This document shows, piece by piece, positions 10,534-20,315 of a DNA stretch of 32,278 nt. A program made the translations under genes and the position numbers. Origin of the DNA: a virus; the IMG/VR virus record IMGVR_UViG_3300027759_000278, positions 1-32,278 of that record. The stretch is one strand, 5' to 3'. The notes under the pieces are model-generated. The model did not search any database. It had not been told where the DNA came from and saw only the letters and a list, made by a program, of their open reading frames with translations. Each line of letters begins with the position of its first letter. The stretch's first letter is position 1.

Positions 10534-12402
10534 ATGACTCCCGCCCAAAAAGAACAGATTGGTGACCGCCTTGAAGCAAAGTTGCGCAAGGTGTGGAGGC
10601 CCGACGACGGAGGGGATATCGTGCAATGGCTGATGGACAACATCCGGCAGATACCTTTCTCGCCGATGCCGTCTGGCTTCCGGGTGCAGGAAACCCCGTG
10701 GCTCGCAGAGCCACTCCGTGCGTGTGCCGACCCGGAAATCCGGTTGGTGCATATCATCGCCCCCATTCAGTCGGGCAAGTCGCTGATGGCGGAGATGCTG
10801 TCGTGCTACATCATAGCCCGCGCCCCTGCTCCGACCCTATACTTGAATGACACGGATGGTAATGCGGCGGATTGGATGCAGAGCCGACTACGAGTTCTGT
10901 GGGAGAATGTCCCGGCGGTCTTGGCAAAGTTGAACAAGGACGAGACGGATAAGAAGACGGGGACAGTCCAGACGGACGAGATGACCTTCTGGTGTCTGGG
11001 TGCGTTCAATGAGAAGAACCTACAGCGTCGGTCTATTCGCTGGCTGGTGGCTGACGAAACTTGGCTGTATCCGAGAGGCCACTTGGCCGAAGCATCGGCC
11101 CGTGTGACTTCATTTGGTTGGCTGGGTAAGCGTATCTTTATGTCGCAGGGTGGGTTTGCCGGGGATGAGACAGAGGAGGTGTGGGTAACCACCGACCAGC
11201 GTGTTTGGTCGTTTCAATGTCCGAAATGCGACCATCGTCAGCCGTGGAGTTGGGACAGGGTAAGGATGCCCGACAACGCTCTTACGCCGGACGGCGAGTA
11301 TGACTATCAAATCATTAAAAAGGATACGACCTATGAGTGCGAGGGGTGCAATCACCGCTTTGCCGATACAAGAACAAACCGGGATGAGATGAACCAGCGT
11401 GGCTTCTACGCACAGACTAATCCCAAGGCAGACTCTGCTAATGTGGGCTTCCAATGGAACGCATTGTGCGCCCGCTCGTGGGGTGGCTTGGCGGAGATGT
11501 ATCTTCGTGCGAAAAATATCCTCGACCTTAACGGCGACGCATCGCCCATCCGCATCTGGAAGCAAAAGCAGATGGCACAATTTTGGTCGGATGCCCCGGA
11601 CTCGTTTGATGTCCTACAAGCAATTGGGGAATACAAGATGGGAGATGAGTGGCTACAGGAGGCCCGGCTGGATGCGACGACCCGCAAAGTTCATACAGAC
11701 TATACACGGGAGAAACAAATCCGCTGTCGTTTTATGACAGTCGATGTGCAACGAAACGGCTTCTATTGCTTGGTTCGCAGTTGGGCAGAGGGAGGAGACT
11801 CACGGCTTGTTCGCTGGCGGTTTGTGCAGACTTGGGAAGATGTTGCGCAAATGGCAAAGGCTAACGATGTGATACCATCGTTCGTCTATGTGGACTGTGG
11901 TGACCAATTCGACGATGTTATCCGGCAATGTGGTATCAATCAATGGACAGCCCTACGAGGTGACCAACGCTACGACTTCCCGTGGCGTGTGCAGACGGCC
12001 CAAGGGCCGAAGATGGTGGCAAAGGTTTACGCTCCTGCCCGATTGGTTAATGTCGGTGCTGGTGCTGTGCGTGTTCACCACTTCTCCAATCTTGCGCTGA
12101 AAGACCAACTGTCGCGTATGCGTAAGTCCGGGAAGCACTCGTGTAGCGTTGACGCAGGCAACGACTACCTTGAGCAAATGGAGTCGGAAGTTCGCCTAAT
12201 GAACCAAGGTGGTAGACCGGAGTGGAAACGAATTGGTAAGCGAGCCAATCACTTGTGGGACTGTGAAGTTATGCAGTTTATCCCGGCTCTGGCGTTTGGC
12301 CTATTAGCCTCGGCTCCAAAGCCGATTGAGGAGAAGAAGCCGGGAGCAGAGGGCGCAACAGCAATTACGCCCAATGAAGACGGGGTTGAAACGCAGGTTT
12401 AA
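10534..12402 (+). CDS. terL: terminase large subunit, GpA family
   Basis: 622 residues, the usual length for lambda gpA-type terminases. The ATPase has Walker A APIQSGKS (76-83) and a Walker B-like WLVADET (170-176). A zinc-ribbon insertion typical of this family carries CPKC (229-232) and CEGC (269-272). The nuclease domain begins near FMTVDVQRNGFYCLV (about 400), and FVYVDCGDQFDDV supplies a second acidic cluster. The protein cuts concatemeric DNA and drives it through the portal. The C-terminal tail (about 600-622) is Glu/Pro-rich. The gene ends with a hairpin and then the 2.6 kb untranslated region, an unusual break between terminase and head genes. Confidence 0.96.
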   Translation: MTPAQKEQIGDRLEAKLRKVWRPDDGGDIVQWLMDNIRQIPFSPMPSGFRVQETPWLAEPLRACADPEIRLVHIIAPIQSGKSLMAEMLSCYIIARAPAPTLYLNDTDGNAADWMQSRLRVLWENVPAVLAKLNKDETDKKTGTVQTDEMTFWCLGAFNEKNLQRRSIRWLVADETWLYPRGHLAEASARVTSFGWLGKRIFMSQGGFAGDETEEVWVTTDQRVWSFQCPKCDHRQPWSWDRVRMPDNALTPDGEYDYQIIKKDTTYECEGCNHRFADTRTNRDEMNQRGFYAQTNPKADSANVGFQWNALCARSWGGLAEMYLRAKNILDLNGDASPIRIWKQKQMAQFWSDAPDSFDVLQAIGEYKMGDEWLQEARLDATTRKVHTDYTREKQIRCRFMTVDVQRNGFYCLVRSWAEGGDSRLVRWRFVQTWEDVAQMAKANDVIPSFVYVDCGDQFDDVIRQCGINQWTALRGDQRYDFPWRVQTAQGPKMVAKVYAPARLVNVGAGAVRVHHFSNLALKDQLSRMRKSGKHSCSVDAGNDYLEQMESEVRLMNQGGRPEWKRIGKRANHLWDCEVMQFIPALAFGLLASAPKPIEEKKPGAEGATAITPNEDGVETQV

Positions 12403-12419
12403 GTATCCGTGTAGCACCG

Positions 12420-12444
12420 GGGGTGGAAAGGGCTAAAACACCCC
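12420..12444 (+). other. hairpin after the large terminase gene
   Basis: GGGGTG (12420-12425) pairs with CACCCC (12439-12444) across a 13-base loop, 18 bases after the TerL stop. There is no T-run, so it is at best a weak terminator or mRNA end stabiliser. Confidence 0.45.
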
Positions 12445-12468
12445 ATCTCAAAAATATTATAAAACGCA

Positions 12469-12487
12469 CTTCTGTAAGTCGTTGATA
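12469..12487 (-). promoter_or_regulatory. inverted copy of the TATCAACGACTTACA element
   Basis: Read on the minus strand this is TATCAACGACTTACAGAAG, identical in 18 of 19 positions to 5159-5177. It lies about 50 bases upstream of the predicted promoter of the long RNA, in an A/T-rich stretch (12449-12463), a place where an activator or repressor would bind. Confidence 0.45.
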
Positions 12488-12535
12488 GACAACGAAATAA
12501 AGATGCAGATTTTTATATCTTTTCGCAAGCGGTTG

Positions 12536-12544
12536 TGGTATACT
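12536..12544 (+). promoter_or_regulatory. extended -10 promoter of the long RNA
   Basis: TGG followed by TATACT (12539-12544) makes an extended -10 element. No good -35 box is found 16-18 bases upstream, as is common with extended -10 promoters. The first base would be near 12551, at the foot of the first hairpin. Confidence 0.55.
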
Positions 12545-12551
12545 TTGTGAG

Positions 12552-12584
12552 TCAGAGTGAGAGTTAACTCTGATTGTTCTTTGA
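12552..12584 (+). promoter_or_regulatory. boxB-like hairpin followed by boxA-like element
   Basis: TCAGAGT (12552-12558) pairs with ACTCTGA (12567-12573), and TGTTCTTTGA (12575-12584) follows. The order hairpin then boxA is that of bacterial rRNA leaders, where boxA (TGCTCTTTAACA in E. coli) recruits NusB-NusE and prevents Rho termination of an untranslated transcript. Confidence 0.55.
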
Positions 12585-12784
12585 AGTCAGACGCGAAACC
12601 GCTACCTTAAGTCCTCTGCAACAAGCAGGGGCTGTGAACCACACCCGCAAGGGCGTGAGCGAAAAGCCAAAGCGTCCGACGGATAAAGTAAGGAGTGCGG
12701 TAGAACCGCCGGAAACATCGAGGGCCGGGTGACAGCAATGTCATCCACTAACTGAAACAATCCTCGACCGAAAACCAAACCTCC

Positions 12785-12794
12785 TGTTCTTTGT
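12785..12794 (+). promoter_or_regulatory. second boxA-like element
   Basis: TGTTCTTTGT repeats the first nine bases of the leader element at 12575, and AAGTC follows closely in both places (TGTTCTTTGAAGTC and TGTTCTTTGTAAGTC). Confidence 0.4.
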
Positions 12795-13391
12795 AAGTCT
12801 TGGTCATCTGAAAATCAAACTTGGCGAGGGGGAAGATTTAAGCCCCCCAAGGTCGGAGAGGACAAATGATTTCGTCTCAATGCTTCAAGCATCGTAAAGC
12901 GAATAGTAGCATCCCTGCCACCACGCCACTAACTTTAAATACCGGGAGGGGTTGAGAAGCCCCGCAAGCACACGCATAAGCGTCCAGATGCCTACGAGGC
13001 AGAGAGGCGTGGAAGTGCTACCCGGTTCAACTTTTGGGTGGGGTTGGAATAAACCCCTTTATCGCAAAGCCCGCCAAGTGCCTCTTGATGAACGACCCAA
13101 ATCCAATTTATGCGGTGTGCGAGACTGACCTCGCCTGTGAAATCCCCCAGCCGACTATCCATAGAGCGGGGGAGTCTGGTATCCAAACCAGCCACATCGC
13201 TCCACTTTAACGGCCCGGCAAAGTGCCTAATGGTTGCTCTCACCTCGCTCCGGCGAGCAAAGGCAAACAACGAGACATCTCACCCGCGCCGTTCTCTTTA
13301 CGCCCACGCTGATTGGCGTTTGGTTCATTGGTTCCGCTGACCTCCAAAAAAAGTCTTACTGCTCTTGCAAGGGCGTGAGGCGACTGACGGG

Positions 13392-13438
13392 GACTGTATC
13401 TGTAACGGATTTAACTGCGAACCGGAGTTCGGGATACC
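13392..13438 (+). repeat. repeated RNA motif, copy A
   Basis: GACTGTATC, a 5-bp hairpin (ATCTG/CGGAT, loop TAA), TTAACTGCG, a short hairpin and GGGATACC. Copy B lies at 13593-13643 with the same order. Confidence 0.6.
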
Positions 13439-13503
13439 GAATGTTAAATGAACTAAACACAAGCAAACTGTCATCTGAAAGGATGACCTGCGGCACTCTT
13501 TAC

Positions 13504-13680
13504 GACCACGCTACTCAATTGGTTGAGTCGGCTCCCGCTGTATCGTCAAAACAAGCCGTCTTCTGGTTGCAACCGGGGACGGGGAGTTAGATGACTGTAT
13601 CCTGTTAAACGGGATTTAACTGTGGAGTCCTTCAAGGGATACCTTGTCGCAAGTTGCAGGTTCAAGTCCTGCCGTGGCCT
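13504..13680 (+). tRNA. tRNA-like domain 1, oversized (about 177 nt)
   Basis: GACCACG (13504-13510) can pair with CGTGGCC (13673-13679) with one mismatch. A D-arm ACTC-AATTGGTT-GAGT follows (13513-13528), and a T-arm with the invariant loop, GCAGGTTCAAGTCCTGC, closes it (13656-13672). CGGCT/AGCCG (13529-13533 with 13554-13558) sits where the anticodon stem should be but has a 20-base loop. About 95 further bases, including motif copy B, lie before the T-arm. The 3' end is TTCA rather than encoded CCA. It is either an interrupted tRNA gene or a tRNA-like domain of the giant RNA, comparable to the tRNA-like part of tmRNA; I favour the latter. Confidence 0.5.
13593..13643 (+). repeat. repeated RNA motif, copy B
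   Basis: GACTGTATC, hairpin ATCCTG/CGGGAT (loop TTAAA), TTAACTGTG, then a short stem and GGGATACC. Compared with copy A the first stem is one pair longer and the loops differ, but the helix and the flanking single strands are kept, as expected for a conserved RNA fold. Confidence 0.6.
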
Positions 13681-13770
13681 TCATTTTGCTGGTAGAAGAT
13701 GTAGAGGCGCTAAATCCCTCTGGCTTTGTTTTGTAAAGCGTAGAGTCTGACCGCCAGCAATTCACTTTAT

Positions 13771-13900
13771 GGACAAGATACTCAATGGTCGAGTTATCTA
13801 ACCAAGTAACGCTATCGTGGCGCGAACGGAAAGGCAAGAGAAGCACCCACGAAGTGCGACTCCGTGAAAGTTGCGGGTTCAACTCCCGCCTTGTCCACCA
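13771..13900 (+). tRNA. tRNA-like domain 2, oversized, with encoded CCA
   Basis: GGACAAG (13771-13777) pairs perfectly with CTTGTCC (13890-13896), followed by A and CCA (to 13900). The D-arm is ACTC-AATGGTC-GAGT (13780-13794) and the T-arm GCGGGTTCAACTCCCGC (13873-13889). The 78 bases between them are far too many for an anticodon arm and variable loop, and no 5-bp/7-base anticodon arm fits. Instead ACGGA/TCCGT encloses GCAC-CCACGAA-GTGC, whose 7-base loop lacks U33. Position 8 is A instead of the conserved U. The T-arm and end resemble those of tmRNA. It may be an intron-bearing tRNA or a charged-end mimic. Confidence 0.55.
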
Positions 13901-14170
13901 TTTCAGACAGGTAAAAAGACAGCCTACAAGGCAGTCTGTAGCCCGGCTACCAGCCGGACAGGGCTTATCACCCCCTGTGGCCACAAAGCCCGCAGAAAGC
14001 CAAGGAGGCAGTCTGGCGACAGGCGTGGATATGGTTAACAGCCCCACGACTCTTACACGGAGCCTCCAAGCGGAAATCGGAATAAGCCCCGCAGGGAAGC
14101 AAGGAAGTGTGTCGGTCGCCCCTTCAACTTTAGTGCTTGACTATCCGGCCCCCGTGGCCACAGTCGATTA

Positions 14171-14182
14171 TGTTCTTTAACA
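14171..14182 (+). promoter_or_regulatory. third boxA-like element
   Basis: TGTTCTTTAACA is the copy closest to the classical boxA (one change from TGCTCTTTAACA). CTTTAACA is repeated immediately after. It could restart antitermination, or mark the 5' part of a second RNA in the same region. Confidence 0.5.
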
Positions 14183-14939
14183 CTTTAACACCCCCGCAAA
14201 CCACCTGCACAGCCTCGCAAGAGGGGAACGCCTAAAGCGTTCGGCATCTGAAAAGTGCCGTAAGCAGAATGGACAAGCCCTGTCTACACAGGGAGTATTC
14301 TTGCGCCGAAGATTAGCCTGCCTTTTCCGCAGGACGGACGGAATGGGGTGAACGAAATTGCAAGGTCTGGTCGCCAGCAATCATCCCGTGTCCAAAACGG
14401 GGAAAGATGCCAGCGAAGATACTGACCCCAAGACGCTTGTGCAGACAAGGCGGGTGGGACAAATAACCTCCGGGTTCCCACCTGCAAAGGCGCAAGATAT
14501 TTAACTTTCGTGGCGTTGACCACGAGCGACCCGCCGGAATATGGCGGAATTAGTCGTGTGGTTGGTTTCCTCTACTGCCTTGGGCGTTAGAACTCACCGC
14601 AGAAGGGGTTGTAGTCTCATCGTCCGCCGGGTGCTTGGTTAACCACCAAGCCGAGTTGCGGAATAAGCGTGAGGCAAAACCAAATGCGGCTTCCGTGAGG
14701 TGGCCTTTGCAATCGGTGTTGCAGGGAAACCCTGCGACATCGCCAGAGGGGAGCGAGTTCGCTACTCGTTTATGGTTTCTCTCTGGTAAATCTTTGGTTT
14801 GGCTGACGAAAGGAGCAGGGCCGGGAAACCGCCTGCCCATCACCGCGACAAGTCCTACGGGATACGACGCTCTGGGAGATAATGGGGTCGTCCAGCAAAC
14901 CTCCAATTTCGGTTGTAAGTGCATAAGGGTTGTTGGTCT

Positions 14940-14974
14940 GGCTCCACCTCAATTAACCGGGGTGGGGCCTTTTT
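14940..14974 (+). terminator. strong terminator of the long RNA
   Basis: GGCTCCACCTC (14940-14950) pairs along all 11 positions (two as G-T) with GGGGTGGGGCC (14959-14969) around an 8-base loop, followed by TTTTT. It ends the untranslated region 40 bases before the first head gene. Confidence 0.9.
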
Positions 14975-15013
14975 GTTTACAGCCTACAGCGTTGACACCC
15001 GGCAAGACTTGCA

Positions 15014-15265
15014 ATGCCAGCATCCGGAATATTCGTCGGACTTCCCCAAGCAACGATTGAAGCAATCCGCGACAAAGCAGTTGCGCTCATCCTTGAAGGG
15101 AAGACAATTATGAGTTACGGGGATGGTGCGAACAACGCCTCAAAACAATTTAGTATGCCGCCCACCCAGATGCTACAGGAAGCAAAATATGCCCTTGAGC
15201 GTCTGGCTTCTCCTACGAGAACCCGTGGCCTTTACACGAATTACAACCGCCTCGTTGACCGCTAA
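15014..15265 (+). CDS. gpW-like head-tail joining protein
   Basis: 83 residues: a helix (ATIEAIRDKAVALILEGKTI), a short beta hairpin (MSYGDGANNASKQFSM), and a second helix (PTQMLQEAKYALERLA). This is the alpha-beta-beta-alpha layout and length of lambda gpW-type head completion proteins. It lies between terminase and portal, the lambda position of gene W. The stop overlaps the portal start (TAATG). The ATG lies 16 bases after a TTGACA box and directly follows the terminator of the long RNA, so it must have its own transcription start or rely on read-through. Confidence 0.75.
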   Translation: MPASGIFVGLPQATIEAIRDKAVALILEGKTIMSYGDGANNASKQFSMPPTQMLQEAKYALERLASPTRTRGLYTNYNRLVDR

Positions 15266-17031
15266 TGCCTCCGGAAGCACCTCGACCCAAGCCCACGACG
15301 GGCGGGCAAACCCCCAACTTCCTCGACAGAGTCCGTATCGGCCTGTCCAACCTCTTAAAGCCGAAGGCTTATCAAGGGGCTTTTGAGTCTACCCGTTATT
15401 CGACCCACCGCACCCGTATCGACGCTCCTCAACCGGACGACTTTCGCCGGGAGATGCAGGACTCGACTCGCCGGGAGATGGTTCGCTTGTCGCGCTGGTT
15501 GGAAAAGAACAACGGCCTCTACAAGCAGATGTTCAAGGATACCTCCATCTACACAGTTGGTGATGGGATAAGCCTACAATGTTTGGGAGGCGACTACGAA
15601 TGGCAGTCGCTGGTTGAAGCAGAGTGGGAGCAAGAGTGTGAAGCCCCAGAAGTGACCGGACGCTTCTCGATGCTGGAATGTCAGTATATGATTTCGGAAG
15701 CCATCGACAGAGACGGCGAGATATTTGCCATCAAGACCAAACGGGGCGGTCAGCCAAAGTTCCAACTTGTCGAAACGCATAGAGTCGAAACACCGCCAGA
15801 CCTATACCAGAACACGGAAATCTCTGATGGCATCCGTTACAACAAGTTGGGTCAGCCAATGGCTTACTATGTCAAGCAAGCCGGAGGCAGTTACACGCTT
15901 ATTCCCGCATCCTCGATGATGCACATTTACGAGGCCGAATATATTTCGCAGTCTCGCGCATACCCGCCTCATCAGCACGCTATCAATAATTTGCGAGACG
16001 AAATGGACTTGCTGGCGATGGAGAAGGTCGCGGCGAAAGACAACGCCCGCACATCTCGTGTCCTCAAGGTCGAGGATACAAAGATGGATACAGGTGACTT
16101 GGGCATTGGCCAACCTCTTGGCCCCGGCAACTCCACCACAGTTCCTACTGACCCGGATACCCTTAATCGAGTTCTTGGTGGCGTGACCGCAGTTTTACAA
16201 AACAATGAGTCCCTCGTCTCGTATGTCTCGGCTCGTCCATCGTCTGCTTTTACAGGTTTTATTGACCATCTTCGACGCGACTCGGTTATGGGTGGCTTGC
16301 CCTATGAGTTTGTGGCTGACCCGACTCGTGCGGGGGGTGCTTCTGTTCGTTTGGTAGTGGCCAAGGCCGGAAGATATTTCGCGCATCGTCAGAATATTAT
16401 CATCCATCGCTTCCTCAATGAATACTTCAAGTATTGGATGGGGGTTAAAATCAAGCAGGGTGAAATTAAGAACGCCAAGAATTGGTGGAAGTGTGAGTGG
16501 GTGACACCTAAATCAGTCACAGTCGATGCGGGCCGGGATGCCGCTAACGAGCGGGCCGACCTTGATATGGGTCGTCAACCTCCGTCCGACGATATGCAGG
16601 CTCGTGGTTATTCCTTTGAGAAGACTGTCCGCAAGACGGCCAGAGACTTTGCTTACATCAAGCGTGTGTCCGAGGAGACGGGTGTCGCTGAAGACAAACT
16701 TTGGCGTAAGTCCCCTGTCGGTGGAGGCGGTGGTGCGCCCGGTGCGCCTCAACCCGGTCAGCCCGGTGGCCCTGCGACCATTCCCGAAGGTGCATTGGGT
16801 GTTGTTATGCCCGGCCCCGACGGCCAACCGCAAATTGTCCCCATTGATAAGATTGCTCCGCAGGAGCCAGAGCCGGAGAAAGATGCTCTCACAAATATGG
16901 AGCCGGAACTGTCTGCGCCCGATTATACAAGCCCTGTAACCCCGATTAACGAGATGGGCGGGGGCGTTGACAACCTTCCAAAACAGAACCCCGGCCTGTC
17001 CCGAAGCCGAGAGCAACCCTACAACCGATGA
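15265..17031 (+). CDS. portal protein, lambda family
   Basis: 588 residues. The lambda gpB-type features are RREMVRLSRWLEKNNGLYKQ near residue 70, AEWEQECEAPEVTGRFSM, EAIDRDGEIFAIK, a core with MHIYEAEYISQSRAYPP, and AAKDNARTSRVLKVED. The portal forms the 12-mer ring through which DNA enters and leaves. The C-terminal 110 residues are Pro/Gly-rich, with GGGGGAPGAPQPGQPGGPA near residue 490, and probably disordered. It overlaps the upstream gene by one base (TAATG) and the protease gene by four (ATGA), typical of a co-translated head operon. Confidence 0.94.
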   Translation: MPPEAPRPKPTTGGQTPNFLDRVRIGLSNLLKPKAYQGAFESTRYSTHRTRIDAPQPDDFRREMQDSTRREMVRLSRWLEKNNGLYKQMFKDTSIYTVGDGISLQCLGGDYEWQSLVEAEWEQECEAPEVTGRFSMLECQYMISEAIDRDGEIFAIKTKRGGQPKFQLVETHRVETPPDLYQNTEISDGIRYNKLGQPMAYYVKQAGGSYTLIPASSMMHIYEAEYISQSRAYPPHQHAINNLRDEMDLLAMEKVAAKDNARTSRVLKVEDTKMDTGDLGIGQPLGPGNSTTVPTDPDTLNRVLGGVTAVLQNNESLVSYVSARPSSAFTGFIDHLRRDSVMGGLPYEFVADPTRAGGASVRLVVAKAGRYFAHRQNIIIHRFLNEYFKYWMGVKIKQGEIKNAKNWWKCEWVTPKSVTVDAGRDAANERADLDMGRQPPSDDMQARGYSFEKTVRKTARDFAYIKRVSEETGVAEDKLWRKSPVGGGGGAPGAPQPGQPGGPATIPEGALGVVMPGPDGQPQIVPIDKIAPQEPEPEKDALTNMEPELSAPDYTSPVTPINEMGGGVDNLPKQNPGLSRSREQPYNR

Positions 17032-19625: not shown

Positions 19626-20315
19626 ATGGCCCGCTCTTACGGAGGTCGTGGTGGAGAAAGCGTCCGTCGCCGAACACCTAACACTACGGACGAAAATCTG
19701 CCTCCGCAGGCTCGTGCCAATGTCGAACGAGCCAACCGCCAAGGCGGTGAGTCTGTTGGCAACGCCGTTGCTACCCTTATGAACTCCGGTGGCGGAGAAG
19801 TCCGAGTTAAGGCCAGCGATACTGTTGGTCTTGGCTCCTTGTCCAAGTTTATGGCCAACCCTATTCTTGAAGGCGAGAATGGTGGAGCCGCCGCTCTAAT
19901 TAACGGCGAACTTAAGGTCTTTGATGCCAAGGGCAAGGAAGTAAAGTTTGGTGATACTGTCACGGCTATGGTTACCCAGAACGGCATCTCGGTTAAGATG
20001 ATGGACTCCCTTGGTCGTTTTATGCCACCTAAAGGTAAGGCTGAACTTAACCCGGAGATTACCGCTGGTGTGCTTGAAGCCTTCTACGCCCAGAAGGGCG
20101 CATCTGAAGCCAAGTTCCGTGCAGACCTTGCTGGTGCTGTTCAGCCAGATGGTTCTATCAAACTTCCGGCCTCCGGACTTTCTCTTGGCGACAAGCCGGG
20201 TAGCCTAAACGATTACATTAAGGTTGCTGGAACGGGTCGCACATCTGCCGAAAAAGACACGGCTTATTTCAAGCAACGCGCCCGCGACCTTGGCATCACA
20301 GGACTGAACGACTGA
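19626..20315 (+). CDS. MARSY-tagged head-associated protein, 229 aa
   Basis: 229 residues beginning MARSYGGRGGESVRRRTP, the same five-residue start as the genes at 1188 and 1899 and encoded by nearly the same bases. Residues 60-130 are beta-rich (GEVRVKASDTVGLG, LINGELKVFDAKGKEVKFGD); the rest is mixed. The slot between scaffold and coat gene is where lambda-like phages encode a head decoration protein (gpD), but no gpD similarity is visible. A head component or internal protein is the best guess. Confidence 0.78.
   Translation: MARSYGGRGGESVRRRTPNTTDENLPPQARANVERANRQGGESVGNAVATLMNSGGGEVRVKASDTVGLGSLSKFMANPILEGENGGAAALINGELKVFDAKGKEVKFGDTVTAMVTQNGISVKMMDSLGRFMPPKGKAELNPEITAGVLEAFYAQKGASEAKFRADLAGAVQPDGSIKLPASGLSLGDKPGSLNDYIKVAGTGRTSAEKDTAYFKQRARDLGITGLND

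Follow-up and report, generated by a model that had tools for sequence, protein, structure and literature searches.

The window analyzed here, a virus sequence of 32,278 bases taken at its full length, carries recognizable genes for TerL, a portal protein, an S49 peptidase, and a P22-type coat protein. Between TerL and a short ORF preceding the portal gene lies the gap examined here (Table 1). Among named genomes, the closest relative of TerL is that of Verrucomicrobium sp. BvORR106 (42% identity), and other Verrucomicrobiota MAGs occur among the nine TerL matches; the host is therefore probably a verrucomicrobium. GTTGACA recurs shortly upstream of the 83-aa ORF start (just before 15014) and in relatives, with no clear −10 partner. 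Unrelated proteins encoded at 1188–1889, 1899–2309, and 19626–20315 have an N-terminal tag in common (MARSY..., MARGNNQS..SVRSE, MGRSYEMKEG), and the same tag type is found on gap proteins of three related loci (L018, L033, and L038); it is perhaps a targeting signal for virion or ejection.

The gap contains overlapping ORFs only, on both strands, the longest stop-to-stop stretch being 174 codons on the minus strand, in line with the sequence-only reading, which saw no credible gene here. Comparison with relatives bears this out. Across 222 gap alignments of relatives, the commonest mismatch phase accounted for a mean of 0.414 of mismatches vs. 0.633 in the portal gene, and it is mainly this absence of codon phase that rules out a protein-coding gap. 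Indels that are not multiples of three (894/1002 in gap alignments) separate coding from noncoding sequence poorly and say little, because the portal control also reached 597/840.

TerL searches of viral contigs yielded overlapping sets of 18 and 33 loci. Among loci with both flanks, the place of the gap is kept and its length is not: It spans 1.8–6.2 kb in the window’s clade and 1.8–5.8 kb, with protein ORFs inside, in a sister clade. An outgroup, at ~59% TerL identity, has gaps of 157–196 bases. The array set comprises 16 nonredundant loci, window included, after removal of copies. Repeat or shorter copies (L001, L003–L007, L009–L017, L019, L020, L024, L028, L032, L036, and L042) stand outside the 16-locus module counts, as do the sister clade, the outgroup, and the distant loci. 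Six loci (L018, L021, L029, L030, L033, and L035) were cut about where protein ORFs begin, and two (L002 and L034) end at contig ends.

BLAST comparisons between gaps revealed blocks with shared sharp ends in changed order. Profiles that we seeded from these matches define 34 module families with 176 placed copies in the TerL–portal gaps of the 16 loci; 13 families occur in the window, whose gap is 63% covered by placed modules, and no module match falls on the minus strand in the 16 loci. Twenty families are present in at least three loci and 14 of the 34 in two; family M16 holds a true tRNA-Thr gene. Placed modules number four in L018, one in L021, and three in L034, which reaches a contig end.

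Table 1. Features of the gap and its flanks in the window
Feature	Positions	Strand	Remarks
TerL	10534–12402	+	tblastn to annotated terminases
Whole noncoding gap, terL to 83-aa ORF before portal gene	12403–15013	+	2,611 bases
Extended −10 promoter-like element, TGG-TATACT	12536–12544	+	From sequence
Hairpin TCAGAGT..ACTCTGA, boxB-like	12552–12573	+	Directly 5′ of boxA
Module I, 5′ leader module	12575–12668	+	12/16 loci; first placed in 11, second in L025
First boxA-like element, GTTCTTTGAAG	12576–12586	+	
Second boxA-like element, GTTCTTTGTAA	12786–12796	+	
Module M19	12826–12918	+	2 loci
Module G	12925–13034	+	4 loci; helices
Module F	13036–13095	+	6 loci; order with G swapped in L026, L027
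Module H, cloverleaf-like	13112–13204	+	13 loci
Module E, paralogue of B core	13302–13494	+	nhmmer core match 13300–13417, alignment; outer borders by eye
Module B, tRNA-like	13504–13679	+	Acceptor, D-arm, T-arm, enlarged middle; 176 nt
Module A, tRNA-like, ACCA end	13771–13900	+	126 nt + ACCA
Module M20	13948–14010	+	3 loci
Module D	14016–14118	+	11 loci; 5/23 pairs changed on both sides
Third boxA-like element, GTTCTTTAACA	14172–14182	+	Exact fit to GYTCTTTAANA
Module C	14174–14336	+	11 loci; 19/42 pairs changed on both sides in 9 sequences
Module J	14368–14449	+	8 loci
Module M21	14506–14792	+	2 loci
Module K, 3′ module	14794–14902	+	12 loci, last placed in each; also in sister clade
Intrinsic terminator	14940–14974	+	Hairpin + T5
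83-aa ORF	15014–15265		Precedes portal gene
Portal gene	15265–17031		Pfam Phage_portal_2

Of 100 locus pairs with two or more single-copy modules in common, 34 disagree in module order. The window itself has C and D reversed relative to all eight other loci with single copies of both, T is the first placed module in L035 and lies in the 3′ half elsewhere, and the B core occurs twice in the window, L023, L031, and L033. Cassettes have been gained, lost, duplicated, and reordered between these related phages. A scan of viral contigs for the C and D patterns returned 12 and 11 stretches, respectively, all from this phage group; two further contigs from that scan (L060 and L070) differ very little from L008 and L023 across the array. 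Searched against 50,697 records of isolated phages, the gaps of the window and L031 gave T-arm-sized or chance-sized matches only. Model R1, built on module K, matched 5 of 387 bacterial genomes at E up to 0.01; the ORF check covered three of these matches (L110, L112, and L113), which lie over long ORFs and were taken as chance, the remaining two being L111 and L114.

Covariation among relatives supports the earlier proposal of a structured noncoding RNA, with both-sided changes found in helices of C, B, and K in the gaps of related phages. In C and K—whose structures, like those of T and D, were derived from the tested alignments and are favored over slid versions for that reason—98.4% and 96.1% of cells are paired vs. 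34–43% and 30–44% in slid controls, and 10 of 21 pairs in K have changed on both sides. Four of five covariation measures for C and K lie above all 500 shuffles; the measure of further pair types does not (380/500 shuffles as high for C, 180/500 for K). The B structure was written from the tRNA rule and the window sequence, and its alignment takes in a B-like element of L022 and a tRNA gene of L008; here 11 of 21 pairs have changed on both sides, 95.5% of cells are paired vs. 30–52% in slid versions, and both-sided changes affect 6 of the 7 acceptor pairs, with 12% of acceptor cells unpaired. Module T, found in relatives, has such changes in 11 of 36 pairs, and D covaries more weakly (Table 1). 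Folding into RNA structure is demonstrated for three modules of the window (B, C, and K) and for T in relatives, and less strongly for D. Of the features that had been offered as signs of structure, GNRA-type loops are common, the 7-mers TCGCAAG, CCGCAAG, and CGAAAGG being overrepresented over the 16 loci. The many stable hairpins add nothing by energy alone: Over the 14 window modules the mean z is −1.27 on the plus strand vs. −1.15 on the minus strand, making thermodynamic stability weak evidence that applies equally to both strands.

Some modules bear the marks of tRNA. T-arms with a 5-bp stem and a TTCRANN loop number 35 on the plus strand and 1 on the minus strand, against a shuffled mean of 0.41. 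When an acceptor stem and a D-arm were demanded as well, 13 elements of 125–221 nt were obtained, which belong to families A and B (one of them, in L022, is B-like), together with four tRNA genes of 71–73 nt (in L008, L021, L027, and L035); five more acceptor candidates (85, 81, 121, 271, and 301 nt) are doubtful and stand outside the 13. In L030 and L035, the true tRNA genes are located downstream of K, close to the cut at the ORF start. Modules A and B are tRNA-like, with acceptor stem, D-arm, and T-arm kept and the anticodon part replaced. Neither A (126 nt) nor B (176 nt) is a canonical cloverleaf of ~70–95 nt with an anticodon arm, and ARAGORN reports no tRNA and 0 tmRNA in the window. 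The one Rfam indication of a tmRNA, at 17.8 bits vs. a cut-off of 47, covers the 3′ part of A only, and tmRNA was rejected.

All five loci in which the acceptor and D-arm search located the 3′ end of module A (window, L002, L008, L023, and L027) have ACCA there, and the A loops TCGTGG and CCACGA, compared by eye, can kiss; B and T end without CCA. Further T-arm families are confined to relatives: M3 (145 nt, ACCA), M7 (about 150–160 nt), and T. In module H, a closing stem judged by eye (GCGGTGTG/CACATCGC) is followed by TCCA. The interval between M12 and M11 is occupied by a 73-nt tRNA-Phe(AAA) gene in two loci (L008 and L027) and by a long B element in two others (L031 and L033); L022 has a B-like element of 152 nt there. 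A single slot serves for tRNA and enlarged tRNA alike. Such a mixture of real and tRNA-like genes might be expected of a graveyard of decaying tRNA and intron remnants, as might anticodon loops that look noncanonical (the tRNA-Phe(AAA) of L008, by eye, has G at position 33). Decay is nevertheless extremely unlikely as the explanation: Compensatory changes preserve helices, as the paired cells of C attest, and module A is 95–96% identical between the window and L008 or L023, whose TerL proteins are 75–76% identical to that of the window.

The window’s leader lies at about 12536–12586. The extended −10 element from which transcription had been proposed to start is present, and L029 has a similar one (TGC-TATACT), but its score is not unusual, 35 of 100 shuffles being equally good. 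A hairpin stands directly before the first boxA-like element in 13 of 15 loci (folded without a shuffle control, with compensated changes seen by eye). The published boxA consensus, GYTCTTTAANA, is described in PMC5725501 as derived for gamma-proteobacteria; the leader copy, GTTCTTTGAAG at 12576, is one or two bases off this gamma-proteobacterial consensus. In uncut gaps, TTCTTT[GAT]A-type motifs occur 39 times on the plus strand and 4 times on the minus strand, vs. 2.1 in shuffles, and are found in 13 of the 16 loci; three loci lack an exact motif (L023, L030, and L035), and two of these, L030 and L035, carry GTTCTTC instead. Among 13 rRNA operons of the Verrucomicrobium phylum, 4 have a boxA-like motif ahead of the 16S gene and 5 have one in the ITS; the 16S bodies contain none. 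A second recurrent motif, ACTTTA[TC], is found 39 times on the plus strand and twice on the minus strand, and 77 of the 176 modules have CTTT close to where they begin (background 14%): CTTT-type linkers often part modules.

At the other end of the region, the terminator hairpin with T5 noted from the sequence is indeed present. Of the 12 K-bearing loci, only two have a strong terminator after K (the window and L023), and L029 has a weak one; elsewhere, therefore, the transcript may extend into the genes that follow.

The sister clade carries a short form of the array consisting of boxA, a module of ~125 nt, a CACTTT-type linker, K, and a terminator. K was detected there by the covariance model in 7 of 8 loci (E 1e-7 to 1e-3; L036 and L037 are near-identical), and L039, unreported by the model, aligns by sequence. 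The 11 pairs of the terminator stem show no variation among seven loci. Because the sister clade has boxA, two modules, and a terminator, the ancestral state may have been a short operon of two modules, which then expanded between these two bookends in the window’s clade.

These comparisons bear on a cis-acting reading, in which the gap is a head-operon leader whose structure and boxA elements tune portal and head transcription or translation. Such a leader would fit the position directly before the 83-aa ORF and portal, the repeated boxA-like elements, and five loci (L008, L022, L025, L027, and L031) with no terminator found in the 46–55 bases from K to the next gene. It has no need of tRNA-like ends, duplicated modules, or shuffled order, however; the sister clade’s two-module operon closes with a terminator, and in L038, L040, L041, L043, and L047 the genes that come next, such as RtcB, are on the minus strand. 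We regard this reading as distinctly improbable.

Model R1 gave no match in the outgroup loci L044–L046. Two outgroup gaps (L044:5326–5521 and L046:3432–3588) each show by eye a single long closed stem with a CTTT-type stretch after it, perhaps a one-module form. A packaging function, whether a pRNA-like cofactor or a pac/cos DNA site beside the terminase, would explain an array that always lies between TerL and portal and a K kept in both clades. It accounts for K at most, many other families being optional and shuffled, and distant relatives lack a match or the room for one: L051 and L052 give no R1 match, and phage P8625 leaves 64 bases between TerL and the start of the following gene. A packaging role is accordingly very unlikely.

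The same site carries proteins in some phages. RtcB is present in 7 of 25 related records: An RtcB RNA ligase gene lies within the TerL–portal gap, on the minus strand, in L038 (3360–4580), L040, L041, L043, and L047, and elsewhere in the records of L022 and L030; the window has none. In L041, RtcB is adjacent to FecR-like and kinase-like genes. The gap at L018:2623–4377, in a locus with few RNA modules, is filled by a tandem pair of similar proteins that bear the MARGNNQS tag; the first of them contains pentapeptide repeats. Gap proteins of L030, L033, L035, L037, L038, L040, L041, and L043 have in common an HxHP..S..D stretch, reminiscent of JAB/MPN metalloproteases; the two scanned (L030 and L038) gave no Pfam match.

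Structure and modularity are well supported. The earlier proposal of one 2.4-kb RNA stands insofar as the region is structured and noncoding, but a single RNA is doubtful, since the region is a mosaic of modules with other orders and numbers in relatives. Because this mosaic has tRNA genes and tRNA-like ends among its modules, we favor one transcript cut into many RNAs and consider it moderately probable that the gap is an operon of separate RNAs—a polycistronic array that is cut—rather than one RNA. This operon would be untranslated, and its layout resembles that of an rRNA or tRNA operon. RNA polymerase would start at ~12551; host Nus factors would modify it at the hairpin–boxA leader, so that Rho would not stop the untranslated transcript, and read-through would continue to the terminator at 14974. 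The transcript would be a string of separately folded modules, and host RNA-processing enzymes would cut at ACTTTA-type linkers and tRNA-like ends, releasing roughly a dozen small RNAs of about 60–300 nt. Some products would be tRNA mimics that keep the acceptor stem, D-arm, and T-arm, with another domain replacing the anticodon part; those of family A would end in ACCA.

The main competitor to this operon reading is one giant RNA with interchangeable domains, working uncut as a scaffold or cage like GOLLD and ROOL. The arrangement of a 5′ module I and a 3′ module K with variable modules between them is compatible with it, and GOLLD too, according to PMC12286853, has a conserved 3′ part, a less conserved 5′ part, and sometimes tRNAs in the linker. 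Against it stand the variation of module number, order, and total length between relatives, the expectation that tRNA genes and tRNA-like ends would be excised from such an array, and the Rfam searches. These searches also lend no support to the suggestion that the region belongs to GOLLD or ROOL: The window has no match to any Rfam family at gathering score, the gap gives five matches at E up to 10 with neither family among them, and the relatives (array set, scanned sister clade, and outgroup) give tRNAs only at gathering score. An uncut giant RNA is, in our judgment, unlikely.

As to what the separate RNAs of an operon might do, we suggest a role in trans, as mimics or decoys occupying host tRNA- or RNA-binding proteins, for example those of a tRNA-targeting defense. 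We prefer it because it fits the variability of the locus, the presence of protein cargo and an RNA ligase at this site in sister phages, and a tRNA chassis without its decoding part; it is offered tentatively, as a guess. Equally tentative is the broader picture of an RNA cassette island: an integron-like phage locus whose exchangeable cargo would be RNA modules, not genes, several of them having a tRNA framework in which a new domain takes the place of the anticodon arm. The modules would be released from a single rRNA-like transcript and favored by selection, in an arms race, as counter-defense or host-takeover agents. If this is correct, phages carry interchangeable sets of structured RNAs, as they do accessory protein sets, and tRNA can act as a scaffold for building new RNA functions. 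The locus would then yield a whole group of new RNA families, with natural variants available for structural studies, and would be an instance of phage use of rRNA-type antitermination for a long untranslated RNA.

Among the matches listed from the open-licence PubMed Central literature, the text covered describes no such array, and an earlier report elsewhere is possible. GOLLD and ROOL are described in PMC12286853 as large, ornate, noncoding phage RNAs, often near tRNA islands. The array resembles them in being large, ornate, noncoding, and phage-borne, with tRNA genes inside it in relatives and none in the window; it differs in having no covariance-model match and in consisting of separate shuffled modules vs. 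one conserved fold. Like rRNA operons with boxA leaders, it has a hairpin and a boxA-like element followed by a long untranslated structured RNA, and arrays of relatives include tRNAs; unlike them, it is phage-borne and has no rRNA.

YrlA and other bacterial Y RNAs mimic tRNA without decoding, and RtcB is part of some Ro/Y RNA repair operons. The array likewise has putative tRNA mimics without decoding, and RtcB occurs among the related records, but the array has no Rfam match and the records searched have no Ro60 gene. A Ro60/Y RNA system was rejected, a TROVE/Ro60 gene being present in 0 of 25 records, many of them fragments.

To our knowledge, the nearest known precedent is the tRNA cluster of T4, which also encodes two stable RNAs: rnaC (species 1, 139 nt) and rnaD (species 2, 119 nt). 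There, too, phage tRNAs stand together with small stable RNAs, separated by linkers a few bases long. The T4 cluster differs in having two such RNAs and no shuffled set, and our 34 module profiles did not match rnaC or rnaD; the four matches at E up to 0.1 (M16 and T) were all to T4 tRNA genes. Yet rnaC ends in a T-arm, CCGGG-TTCGAAT-CCCGG, and therefore itself looks like an enlarged tRNA.
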